A DNA stretch of 60,089 nt, from positions 1 to 60,089 of the forward strand of contig JALUKQ010000109.1 in the NCBI GenBank assembly GCA_027056485.1, written 5' to 3'. This DNA is from Campylobacteraceae bacterium. Its GTDB lineage: Bacteria > Campylobacterota > Campylobacteria > Campylobacterales > Sulfurovaceae. Positions 13,789-19,595 of this stretch are shown here, in pieces (position 1 is the first letter of the stretch; every line of letters starts with the position of its first letter). The notes beneath the pieces are model-generated. The model was given only the letters and a program-made list of their open reading frames with translations. It made no database searches and was not told the DNA's origin. Made by a program: the position numbers and the translations under genes.

Positions 13789-14604
13789 ATGAAACTATAT
13801 AAAATTTTAGAAGAAGCCATTACAAGTGATTGTATTGAGACTAAAGAAAAACTGACACAGCAATGTTTTGAGTATTGTAGCCAAAATGAGTTTATATCTT
13901 CTGAAGGTTTTAAACCTCTTTTATTTGATGAACCATCTTATATAAACAGATGTAAAATCGTTAATCCTAAAGAGTTAAAAGCAAGAAAAGATTTTGATAA
14001 GCCAGAAGGATTAGCAACCTTAGTACATGCTATAGCACATATAGAGTACTCAGCTATAGATTTAGCATTAGATGCTGTTTATCGCTACCCTAAAATGCCA
14101 CAACGTTTTAAACTAGATTGGTTAGAAGTTGCATTAGATGAAGTTAGACACTATCAGATGCTTGAAGAGTTATTACATGATTTGGGTTTTAAATATGGAG
14201 ATTTCCCTGTTCATTGTGGACTTTTTGATGCTGCCAAATATACGGCAGATAATATACTTGATAGAATGGCAATAATTCCCAGATATCATGAAGCCAGTGG
14301 ATTGGATGTTAACCCACAAATTAGTAAAAAACTTGATAACAAGCGAAAACTTCTTCCCGTTAAAAAATTAATTAAAATTCTTAAAATTATTTATGATGAA
14401 GAAATTATTCATGTTAATAAAGGTGATTATTGGTTTAAATATATTTGTGAAATAGAAAACTTAGACATATCAATTTATTTTAATATTTTAGAAAAATATA
14501 AATTACTAGAGAAGCATAGACCCCATATTAACGTTGCTGCACGTCAAAAAGCTGGTTTCACATGTGATGAATTAAGAAAGCTTGGGGATGCAGAATGTAA
14601 CTAA
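13789..14604 (+). CDS. DUF455 family ferritin-like protein
   Basis: 271 residues matching the DUF455 pattern: FDKPEGLATLVHAIAHIEYS, with an early carboxylate and His pair, then LDWLEVALDEVRHYQMLEEL. The E-x2-H-type helices (HIEYSAIDLALD; DEVRHYQML) look like a di-iron four-helix bundle, and a later DEEIIHVNKGD helix could add ligands. The family is annotated as ferritin-like and its reaction is not established. The protein is cytoplasmic, with no signal peptide. Its 3' part is markedly more A/T-rich than its first half. Confidence 0.82.
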   Translation: MKLYKILEEAITSDCIETKEKLTQQCFEYCSQNEFISSEGFKPLLFDEPSYINRCKIVNPKELKARKDFDKPEGLATLVHAIAHIEYSAIDLALDAVYRYPKMPQRFKLDWLEVALDEVRHYQMLEELLHDLGFKYGDFPVHCGLFDAAKYTADNILDRMAIIPRYHEASGLDVNPQISKKLDNKRKLLPVKKLIKILKIIYDEEIIHVNKGDYWFKYICEIENLDISIYFNILEKYKLLEKHRPHINVAARQKAGFTCDELRKLGDAECN

Positions 14605-14699
14605 TAAAAAAAAACATAATAAATTATATAGTGTTTCAAATAACTTTTAAAGATAAAAGAGTATAATAATCTTATAAAATTAAATAAAAAGTGGAAATA

Positions 14700-15836
14700 A
14701 TGCAAAATAAAATAGAATTTTATAAACCGTCAATACAGAGCAATACAAAGCAGTATATAGATGATGTTTTAAATTTTTCAGATAACTCAAAAGTTGAAAA
14801 GCTTGAAAAATCATTTACTGAATTCATTGGTTGTGAATATGCACTAGCAACAACCAGTGGAACAGCAGCATTGCATTTAGCTATGTGTGCTTTAGATTTT
14901 AAAAGAGGTGATAAAGTAATCTGTAGTATAAATGTTTTTCCATCTGTACCTCAAGCCGTTCGTCATTTTGATGCTGAACCAATCTTTGTGGATATAGAGA
15001 GTAAGAATTATACTATTGATTTAGGGAAACTTGAAAAAGCCTTGGAAAAAAATCAAAGTAAGAAATTAAAAGCAATTATTGTTAATCATATGGCAGGACA
15101 TTTGGTTGACTTAGAGAGAGTATATGAGCTTGCAAAGCAGTATAACGTAAAAGTTATAGAAGATGCCTCTAATGCAATGGGTGCTAAATATAAAGGGAAT
15201 TATATTGGAAATACAGGATCCGATATTACTGTATTTTCTTTTGCACCACACTTATGCAGTTCATTAACCAATGGTGGTATGTTGGTGACCAATGATGAGC
15301 AAACATATAAGCAGGCACAGCTATTAGGCTTTCATGGTATGGAAGGTAGATTATGTGATAGTTATGGTAATGTTAACTACATATATGATGTTGTAAATAT
15401 AGGATGGAAGTACGACCTAAGTCAGTTAGAAGCAGCTTACTGTTTGGCTGATTTTGAGGCACTTGATGCAAGTATTGAAAGAAGAAGAGAAATAGCATCT
15501 ATGTACTCTAAGCACCTTGAAAATGTTAAGCATGTAAAGTTGCCATCTGTAGATGAAGATGATATTTCAACACAATATATAGTTGAAATTGATAAGAATA
15601 GAGATCATTTTGTAAATGAGTTAAAAAAAGAGGGTGTAACAATCTCTGTTCATTATATGCCTTTACATTTAACTCAGTACTATAAGCAAAAGTACTCTAT
15701 GAAAGTATTTGATTATTCAGTAGCATTAGGTGCATTTCAAAGAGTAATGTCCTTACCTATGTACGCTTCATTAACAGATGAAGAGGTGCTTCGTGTATGT
15801 GATGCTATTAAAAAAGTAGCTGATGAACATATTTAA
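14700..15836 (+). CDS. DegT/DnrJ/EryC1-fold protein lacking the PLP lysine
   Basis: 378 residues with the fold of sugar aminotransferases. The phosphate-binding loop TTSGTAALHLAM, the cofactor Asp in EDASNAMGA, and C-terminal QLEAAYCL and LPMY motifs are all present. The segment that normally reads SFHxxKxITTxEGG reads SFAPHLCSSLTNGG here. The Schiff-base lysine is replaced by Leu185, with His184 beside it. A normal transaminase is therefore unlikely. It may be a sugar dehydratase-like relative (ColD uses His at the lysine site), or have a structural role. I prefer ATG 14700 (GTGGA upstream) over GTG 14691. The stop overlaps the lpxK start. Confidence 0.85.
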   Translation: MQNKIEFYKPSIQSNTKQYIDDVLNFSDNSKVEKLEKSFTEFIGCEYALATTSGTAALHLAMCALDFKRGDKVICSINVFPSVPQAVRHFDAEPIFVDIESKNYTIDLGKLEKALEKNQSKKLKAIIVNHMAGHLVDLERVYELAKQYNVKVIEDASNAMGAKYKGNYIGNTGSDITVFSFAPHLCSSLTNGGMLVTNDEQTYKQAQLLGFHGMEGRLCDSYGNVNYIYDVVNIGWKYDLSQLEAAYCLADFEALDASIERRREIASMYSKHLENVKHVKLPSVDEDDISTQYIVEIDKNRDHFVNELKKEGVTISVHYMPLHLTQYYKQKYSMKVFDYSVALGAFQRVMSLPMYASLTDEEVLRVCDAIKKVADEHI

Positions 15837-16771
15837 TGTCCTTTCGTAGCTATGTGGTCTCTTTCTTTGAGAGACTATTTTTTAAGCCTAGTCTTTTTGA
15901 CTGGCTTTTAATCCTTCTTTTTTCTCCTCTATCTTTACTCTATGCCTTTGTTATGTTAATCAGGCGAGTAATAACTCCTAAAAAATCTTATTCTATACCT
16001 ATTGTAAGTATTGGTAATCTAACTGTTGGTGGTAGTGGTAAAACACCATTTGTTATAGCTTTAGCAGGTCGATATAAAGATGTTGCTGTTATCTCAAGAG
16101 GATATGGTAGAGAGAGTAAAGGTTTAGTAGAAGTGTCACGAAAAGGTCAAATTTTAACAGATGTATATTCTTCAGGAGATGAGCCTATGCTTATGGCAAT
16201 ATCACTCCCTAATGCATCAGTTATGGTTAGTGAAAATCGTGAAATTGCTATTGAATTAGCTATAGAGCAGGGTGCAAAAGTTATATTTTTAGATGATGGT
16301 TTTAATAGAGTTAATATTGAAAAATATGATATCTTGCTTTTTCCAGAGAAAATACCTAATTATATGTCCTTTCCAATAGGTCCTTTTCGTGAGTTTTACC
16401 TATCAAAGCACTTTTCTAATATAAACTTATATGAAAATAGAGATTTCAAAAGAGTAGTAGAAATTGATAATCCAACAGAAAAAATGTTGCTAGTGACAGC
16501 AATTTCAAATCCAGAGAGACTTGAGCCTTTTTTACCTAAAGGTGTAGTAGAAAAGTATTATTTGGAGGATCATGCCTATTTTGAAGAGGAGAAACTTAAA
16601 GAAAAACTTTTAATTTCTTCTGCTATATCTTTACTTGTAACTGAAAAAGATAAAGTAAAAATGAAAGGCTTTAAGTTACCCCTATCGGTTATGCAGTTAA
16701 AATTACAAATCAAAAATGAGATGTTAGAAAAAGTAGACAGATATATTGGAGAATATGAAAATGAAAAATAA
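15836..16771 (+). CDS. lpxK: Tetraacyldisaccharide 4'-kinase
   Basis: Phosphorylates the 4' position of the lipid A precursor at the inner membrane. 311 residues. An N-terminal membrane-associated helix (about 22-44, WLLILLFSPLSLLYAFVML) is followed by GNLTVGGSGKTPF with the P-loop at 65-70, and later LDDGFN, the family's DDGxQ/N motif. The ATG overlaps the preceding gene's stop (TAATG). The 3' end overlaps argB by 11 bp. The coupling to a DegT-fold gene suggests that gene also works on envelope sugars. Confidence 0.95.
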   Translation: MSFRSYVVSFFERLFFKPSLFDWLLILLFSPLSLLYAFVMLIRRVITPKKSYSIPIVSIGNLTVGGSGKTPFVIALAGRYKDVAVISRGYGRESKGLVEVSRKGQILTDVYSSGDEPMLMAISLPNASVMVSENREIAIELAIEQGAKVIFLDDGFNRVNIEKYDILLFPEKIPNYMSFPIGPFREFYLSKHFSNINLYENRDFKRVVEIDNPTEKMLLVTAISNPERLEPFLPKGVVEKYYLEDHAYFEEEKLKEKLLISSAISLLVTEKDKVKMKGFKLPLSVMQLKLQIKNEMLEKVDRYIGEYENEK

Positions 16772-17612
16772 AATAGATGTAGTAAAAACACTCTTAGATG
16801 CACTACCATACATAAAAAAATTTGCAAATGAGAAGATTGTGATTAAGTATGGGGGGTCTGCACAAACTTCAGAAGTGTTAAAACAGCAGTTTGCACAAGA
16901 CATTGTACTACTCCATACCGTAGGAATGAAACCCATTATTGTTCATGGTGGTGGAAAAAGCATTACAGATTTGTTAGCAGACTTGGGTGTAGATACTAAG
17001 TTTGTAGATGGACAAAGGGTAACTACTAAAGAAGTTATGCGTATAGCTGAGATGGTTTTAAGTGGTGAAATAAACAAAGATATAGTCTCTCTTCTAAACA
17101 ATCAAGGAGGGTCAGCGATAGGTATTTCAGGAAAAGATGCAAATTTATTGGAAGCAATACCTAAAGACTTTGAAAACTTTGGTTACACAGGAGTTATTCA
17201 AAATGTAAATCCTAAAGTGGTTAACAGTATTATTGATGATGGATTTGTTCCCGTTATTGCTCCTATCGCTTCGGCTCCAACCCTAGCACATCCAGGATTT
17301 AATATTAATGCTGATTTTGCTGCTAGTAAGATTGCTATCGCTTTAGAGGCAAGAAAAATACTCTTTTTAACAGATACAGAAGGTGTTTTAGATAAAGATA
17401 TGAAATTATTACGCAATTTGGATATACAAGAGACAGAAGCTTATAAAGCTGATGGTACTATAAGTGGTGGTATGGTTCCTAAAGTTGATGCTTGTGTTGA
17501 AGCATTAAGAGGAGGGGTTAAAAAAGCACATATTATTGATGGACGTTTAGAACACTCTATACTTTTAGAAATTTTAACTTCGGCTGGTATTGGTACCTGT
17601 ATTCAACTTTAA
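16761..17612 (+). CDS. argB: Acetylglutamate kinase
   Basis: Second step of arginine synthesis: phosphorylates N-acetylglutamate. About 283 residues with KYGGSA near the N-terminus (conserved Lys and Gly-Gly), VHGGGKSI, LSGEINKDIV, and the FLTDTEGVLDKD and GGMVPKVDAC segments of the amino-acid kinase family. I choose ATG 16761 because GGAG at 16748-16751 is 9 nt before it. TTG 16746 and ATG 16755 are in frame but poorly spaced. The start lies inside lpxK. Arginine feedback control cannot be judged from this, though the N-terminal helix that often accompanies it is short. Confidence 0.95.
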   Translation: MKNKIDVVKTLLDALPYIKKFANEKIVIKYGGSAQTSEVLKQQFAQDIVLLHTVGMKPIIVHGGGKSITDLLADLGVDTKFVDGQRVTTKEVMRIAEMVLSGEINKDIVSLLNNQGGSAIGISGKDANLLEAIPKDFENFGYTGVIQNVNPKVVNSIIDDGFVPVIAPIASAPTLAHPGFNINADFAASKIAIALEARKILFLTDTEGVLDKDMKLLRNLDIQETEAYKADGTISGGMVPKVDACVEALRGGVKKAHIIDGRLEHSILLEILTSAGIGTCIQL

Positions 17613-17736: not shown

Positions 17737-19248
17737 ATGAAAGAAAGCATAAAAATATTTTCTCAAGACCTTAAAAGTTCATTCAAAGATTTACTACCCA
17801 TTATTGTGGTAGTAGCATTCTTCCAAACATTTATAATTCAAACGATACCGGATAATTTAATCTCTATCGTAATTGGGCTTACTATTGTTGCTGTTGGCTT
17901 AGCTCTTTTTATTCGAGGGCTTGAATTGGGTATATTCCCCATTGGTGAAAACCTTGCTATAGATTTTGCTAAAAAAGGTTCTGTTTTTTGGCTACTACTT
18001 TTTGCTTTTACTATTGGTTTTGCTACAACAGTTGCTGAACCTGCACTCATAGCTATTGCAGATAAAGCAGCTGTGATATCAGGTGGTTTGGTAGATGCTT
18101 TTTGGCTTAGAATGACTGTTGCTTTTTCCGTTGGTTTTGCTATATCGTTAGGTACACTTCGTATTCTTCTTGGACACCCTATTCAATATTATATTATTAC
18201 AGGATACATATTGGTTGTATTGGTGACATTTTTTGCACCAAAAGAGATTATTGGTCTGGCTTATGACAGTGGAGGAGTTACAACTTCTACCGTTACCGTA
18301 CCATTAGTAGCTGCACTTGGGATTGGCTTGGCTTCAAGTATTAAGGGTAGAAATCCAGTTATAGATGGTTTTGGTTTGATCGCTTTTGCTTCATTGACGC
18401 CTATGATATTTGTTCAAGTTTATGGTATTGTTGTTTATAACTTTTTTGATGTCTCAGTGCTTCCGATTGTAAACGAAACAGTAGAAATAGTAAAAGTTGC
18501 TGTTGAAATACATACCTTTTCTATAGTAGATATGTTTCTAGAATTATTAAGCGTTATTAAAGATATTGCTCCAATATTAATAGTTATATTTTTCTTTCAG
18601 TATATTATTATTAAAAAATCTGTACCTCATTTATCGAAAATTATTGTAGGTATAAGTATGGTGATTTTAGGATTATATGCTTTTATAGTGGGTTTAGATA
18701 TGGGTCTTTTCCCTATAGGTGAAAGTATAGCAAATGATTTAACCAGTCAAGATAACAATTTACTTATTTATCTTTTTGGTTTTATGATTGGTTTTTCAAC
18801 AACCATGGCAGAACCTGCACTTTTAGCTATAGCTATTAAAGTTCAAGATATTTCTGAGGGAATGATACAGCAAAACATGTTAAGAATTGTGGTAGCATTA
18901 GGTGTAGCAATAGGTATTAGTTTAGGTGCTTATCGTCTTGTAGAGGGTGATCCCATACACTATTATATTATTGCTGGGTACTCTTTGGTTATTATTTTAA
19001 CCTATTTTGCTCCTAAGCATATTATACCGATTGCATATGATACGGGGGGAGTTACAACATCAACTGTTACGGTACCTTTAGTAGCAGCACTGGGAATTGG
19101 ATTGGCAACAAATATTGATGGACGAAACCCTCTTATTGATGGATTTGGTCTTATCGCTTTTGCTTCACTTTTTCCCATGATCACAGTTATGGGCTATGGT
19201 ATACATGCAGAGTATAAGAAAAAACAATTAGAAAAGGTAGGTAGATGA
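17737..19248 (+). CDS. DUF1538 family polytopic membrane protein (internal duplication)
   Basis: 503 residues, highly hydrophobic, with an estimated 12-14 transmembrane helices. Two halves (about 15-245 and 270-495) repeat the same landmarks: [11 protein letters not shown] / [26 protein letters not shown] / [15 protein letters not shown], and an identical 21-residue stretch beginning [13 protein letters not shown] in both. This inverted- or tandem-repeat layout is typical of secondary transporters. The substrate is unknown. The next gene, a PII-like regulator, overlaps it by 4 bp (ATGA), and a CBS-pair gene follows. Together they suggest a transporter gated by nucleotide or energy status. Confidence 0.85.
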
Positions 19249-19595
19249 AGTTTACAGCATTAGTTGCAATCATTGAAGATAAAGATGAAGAGTTAGCCAT
19301 AGATGTAGCCAAAGAGGCCGGAGCAGGTGGCGTGACAATTATTCATGGTAAAAGTATTGGTCTTGAAGAGAAAAAAGTTTTCTTTGGATTAACACTTGAG
19401 GCCAATGTTTCAATATTACTTTTTATTTTACCACGTAGACTCTCTCTGACTGTTATGAAAGCTCTACGTAAAAAATTTGATTTAGATAACAGTAAAAATG
19501 GAGCTATGACATTTACTATTCCATTGAGTCATGTTGCAGGATTAGATAATGATGAACTTCACAAGTTTGAAGACAATATAAAAACAATGTTATAA
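19245..19595 (+). CDS. PII-like signalling protein
   Basis: 116 residues with the PII (GlnB-type) ferredoxin-like fold: [20 protein letters not shown], then [15 protein letters not shown], a loop, and a final amphipathic segment. The [10 protein letters not shown]-type nucleotide-binding region is recognisable. The T-loop is short and lacks the canonical uridylylated Tyr, so classical GlnD control is unlikely. Members next to transporters bind adenine nucleotides and plug or tune the transporter. Overlap with the DUF1538 stop argues that this is its partner. It is not GlnB or GlnK, since neither amtB nor glnA is nearby. Confidence 0.8.

Follow-up and report, generated by a model that had tools for sequence, protein, structure and literature searches.

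The gene at 14700..15836 on the forward strand of the window (the whole 60,089-nt stretch of DNA that was analysed) encodes a DegT/DnrJ/EryC1/StrS-fold protein that lacks the Schiff-base lysine of the PLP-dependent sugar aminotransferases. We consider it, with fair confidence, an ancient and vertically inherited pseudo-aminotransferase of the Campylobacterales, an order of sulfur- and gut-dwelling bacteria, which would have lost catalysis and would be kept for a binding role. Precisely, a relative of PseC and ArnB with the DegT fold has lost the Schiff-base lysine, the loop around it and the nucleotide-binding N-terminal stretch, and purifying selection retains the lysine-less protein, probably for the binding of a ligand or a partner rather than for the usual chemistry.

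The longest form of the open reading frame runs from GTG 14691 to the stop at 15836, with an alternative start at ATG 14700. We favoured the latter, as the first-pass annotation of this DNA had done, because GGA at 14693-14695 precedes it; the protein is in this case 378 residues long. Residues are numbered here from the GTG, and L188 and H187 are the L185 and H184 of that annotation, which counted from the ATG. The gene had been described as intact, full length and coupled to lpxK, and so we found it: its stop codon overlaps the start codon of lpxK (tetraacyldisaccharide 4′-kinase; 15836..16771, forward strand) as TAATG at 15834-15838. A DUF455 gene lies upstream (13789..14604) and argB lies downstream of lpxK (16746..17612), both on the forward strand. 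In many families the degT-like gene is preceded by DUF455 and in others by nadE, in many argB follows lpxK, and the usual order in most families is DUF455 or nadE, degT-like gene, lpxK, argB. Further along the window, a DUF1538 permease-like protein with two DUF1538 stretches (17737-19248) precedes a short ORF (19245-19595); these are unrelated to the degT-like gene. The source genome is a 2.48 Mb draft, whose close relatives are Sulfurovum-like MAGs.

The protein scores 293 bits against the PF01041 profile (DegT/DnrJ/EryC1/StrS), for which the gathering score is 19.8, and is hence a member of the family. The best Foldseek matches of an AF2 model of medium confidence (pLDDT 68, pTM 0.71) were ArnB and related sugar aminotransferases (SATs), perosamine synthase and PseC also among them, with TM values of about 0.8; at this confidence of the model, the protein is predicted to have the fold-type I aminotransferase fold. 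The closest solved structures, both by sequence and by fold, are those of ArnB (UDP-Ara4N aminotransferase), although the score of 214 bits is far below the equivalog cut-off of 631 bits. The best NCBIfam match is PseC (UDP-4-amino-4,6-dideoxy-N-acetyl-beta-L-altrosamine transaminase), with which the protein shares the fold and a VV..FDA.P segment, the Campylobacterota paralogues being 34-38% identical to it; however, its 272 bits do not reach the TIGR03588 equivalog cut-off of 423.5, and the ATK with its Lys, the GEGG loop and the GP N-terminal loop of PseC are all lost.

In an alignment running from end to end, the PLP lysine of ArnB (K188) falls on Leu188 of the window protein, encoded by the TTA at 15252..15254 and preceded by a His codon (CAC) at 15249-15251. 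Both the alignment and the DNA thus bear out the earlier reading of a Leu at the PLP-lysine column with a His beside it; the DNA of the loop, ttt tct ttt gca cca cac tta tgc agt tca tta acc aat ggt ggt, translates as FSFAPHLCSSLTNGG, in which the Schiff-base lysine of the SFxxxK...GEGG loop is absent. The column carries Leu, Met, Val, Ser, Gly, Arg, another residue or a gap, and no Lys, in 114 of the 129 aligned orthologues. In the 11 PseC sequences considered, neither the lysine column nor the positions beside it vary, whereas in the orthologues the former lysine loop (residues 185-194; 15243..15272, forward strand) is the most variable stretch of the core order-wide. It ranks first among the 311 windows of ten residues that lie between residues 38 and 357, with a mean of 3.08 bits versus 1.81 overall, and in four members of the family f23 (L162, L164, L165 and L170) the loop is shorter by several residues.

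The alignment places a Lys at the column in the other 15 orthologues. Thirteen of these make up one Sulfurovaceae clade (L095-L107), nested among Lys-less relatives, whose loop is one residue shorter than in the SATs and of the GxK type (e.g. FGSKIDNTIDGG); the Lys stands 8 residues before the last loop residue, as in PseC. The tree needs 2 label changes for Lys if this residue is counted as different and 5 if it is counted as the same, and the lysine of this clade may have been regained or be coincidental. The remaining two belong to the genus g28, in which, further members included, the exact lysine column is either K or R; a Schiff-base lysine would not tolerate such a toggle, which argues against this role. 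The first-pass annotation had also foreseen that a lysine from another segment might occupy the active site. The best-conserved lysines are K71, K75, K124, K125 and K334; by alignment none of them is in the lysine loop and three (K71, K125 and K334) are common to the lysine-bearing PseC, and K240 is Lys in merely 32% of the orthologues. On these alignments, we rejected a substitute active-site lysine.

A tree and a list of the residues at the lysine column had been suggested as a check. We built the tree from the 129 distinct orthologues, which come from more than 15 families, together with PseC and with four further DegT proteins from the window genome, all of which have the lysine. The orthologues form a single clade (support 100/100), separate from PseC and the other SATs. 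Matches were found in 52 of the 71 sampled Campylobacterales genera, a count that may include a few PseC matches at its weak end, and among the matches listed all are inside this order. In the family of the window genome, most sampled congeners and most other genera have an orthologue, the genus g4 being the main exception. No description of an lpxK-linked, Lys-less DegT family was found in the open-access literature. The gene is under purifying selection, with a dN/dS of 0.033-0.036 against the three closest relatives and of 0.05-0.13 in other comparisons.

We judged the cofactor and substrate pocket against the residues listed for Spr1654 (PMC5936713). The phosphate loop and the cofactor Asp, which the first-pass annotation had reported to remain, are both there: the window protein has SGT at residues 56-58 and, at the position of the PLP N1-binding Asp, D158 (15162..15164, forward strand), which is conserved in 89% of the orthologues (weighted). 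The phosphate-binding positions are partly kept (Thr/Ser58 in 84%, Ser/Thr183 in 73%). H133 is conserved at 0.82, and H321-Y322 and H326 at about 0.8, the former being the His-Tyr/Phe pair conserved in SATs and retained in about 80%. On the other hand, three positions are unconserved among the orthologues, namely 161 (the O3′ His), 185 (the sugar-flanking His) and 194 (the loop Glu). The old cleft is thus half retained: a ligand is possible, whereas classical transamination, already excluded by the first-pass annotation, is not.

The family has instead residues of its own. K75, R91, H92, E96, F99 and K124 are specific to the Lys-less proteins, and two blocks are almost invariant, one at residues 61-105 (KRGDK ... 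RHFDAEP; 14871..15005, forward strand), which holds the first five of these residues, and the other at residues 291-356 (NRD, HY.PLH and YYK.KY; 15561..15758, forward strand). The protein would probably form a dimer of the DegT type and bind either a ligand in what is left of the cleft or another protein at the KRGDK/RHFDAEP segment. More tentatively, we propose an order-wide pseudoenzyme family that had a single origin, in a PseC/ArnB-like transaminase and ahead of the diversification of the Campylobacterales; in this family the segment would serve an LPS-independent binding or scaffolding and the old catalytic loop would be unconstrained.

The alternative that survives best is a lysine-independent enzyme, which would hold PLP, PMP or another ligand noncovalently and carry out chemistry in the remaining cleft. 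D158, H133, H321-Y322 and H326 may be compatible with a functional cleft, even with noncovalent PLP/PMP binding, and T/S58, an aromatic residue at position 83, D158 and S/T183 occur together in 85 of the 129 sequences; in addition, to judge from the titles of the structures, Lys-to-Ala mutants of ArnB and of other SATs have been crystallised with PLP and/or a sugar ligand. However, the weighted share of sequences with all four anchors is only 41%, both the O3′ His and the loop Glu have disappeared, and no stretch varies more than the loop, hence we consider such an enzyme unlikely.

Nearly all carriers have the degT-like gene immediately 5′ of lpxK, and the two often overlap, as would be expected of a regulator or partner of LpxK that senses lipid A precursors or UDP-sugars. 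We regard this role as improbable, since the two genes part in several lineages. In the genus g6, of the same family as the window genome, the order is DUF455, degT-like gene, argB, with lpxK absent exactly between the last two (loci L104 and L105), and the profiles of LpxK (PF02606), LpxC (PF03331), LpxB (PF02684) and LpxD (PF04613) gave no match in any of the four g6 genomes (G005, G016, G026 and G035, two of them 95% and two 72-74% complete). In the same search, the LpxC, LpxB and LpxD profiles matched in the window genome and in G021. A chance absence of all four genes from all four genomes is unlikely, which suggests that g6 lost lipid A synthesis and retained the degT-like gene. The reverse is seen in the g4 lineage (L180-L187), which has lpxK without the degT-like gene, mostly as DUF455-lpxK-argB. 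In f23, lpxK is elsewhere in the genome and does not follow the degT-like gene. In one f23 genome (G186, contig C1, 383834-384715), the lpxK matches are in three pieces and in different frames, as if frameshifted.

Furthermore, the N-terminal stretch, which in sugar aminotransferases contacts the uracil (PMC5936713), is shortened and unconserved in the Lys-less family. By co-occurrence, then, the gene does not behave as a member of the lpx pathway, and the role of the protein is not confined to lipid A. The earlier suggestion of a non-enzymatic sugar sensor tied to lipid A therefore stands in its first part only: the protein is probably non-enzymatic, but g6 and L180-L187 speak against the tie with lipid A, and the loss of the uracil-contact stretch against the sugar.

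We also considered a heterodimer in which the protein would be the inactive partner of a working sugar aminotransferase. The active sites of SATs are at dimer interfaces (PMC5936713), and there is a precedent in hLCB1 (SPTLC1), a PLP-enzyme relative without the PLP lysine that is retained by selection and pairs with the catalytic hLCB2 in serine palmitoyltransferase (PMC3794620). Unlike hLCB1, which has a catalytic paralogue to pair with, the degT-like protein has no other full-length DegT protein beside it in the 99% complete genomes G021 and G030, in which the remaining PF01041 matches are short and weak (<40 bits); moreover, no PseC above the cut-off was found in 28 of 60 carriers. These observations make a heterodimer with a DegT paralogue quite improbable and largely refute it, and for PseC as the partner the PseC-less carriers, with G021 and G030, rule it out. 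The lysine-less protein thus needs no active DegT paralogue.

A PMP-dependent 3-dehydratase like ColD, proposed in the first-pass annotation, is very improbable. ColD and E1 (AscC) belong to the same superfamily and likewise lack the lysine, which is replaced in them by a His that serves as the catalytic base (PMC8987622), and in the window protein a His does adjoin the column. Nevertheless, the column itself is Leu with no conserved His nearby, it is His in 0 of the 129 orthologues, and the adjacent residue is H in only 65 of the 129, the rest having Q, N, D, K, a gap or others. Finally, although the window comes from a draft of 187 contigs, we give practically no weight to a decaying gene or to a sequencing error against homologues that all have Lys, a case the first-pass annotation had raised, since independent assemblies, with orthologues 97-98% identical, carry the same residues at the site and the dN/dS is 0.03 against the closest relatives; both were ruled out.

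By the family profile, these genes pass for DegT aminotransferases although the evidence speaks for the loss of the usual chemistry, which would mislead predictions of LPS and glycan pathways across the order. Being the sole full-length DegT protein in a genome, and surviving in a genus where no lipid A genes were detected, the protein offers a clean natural system in which to learn the use of a transaminase fold that has lost its cofactor lysine.
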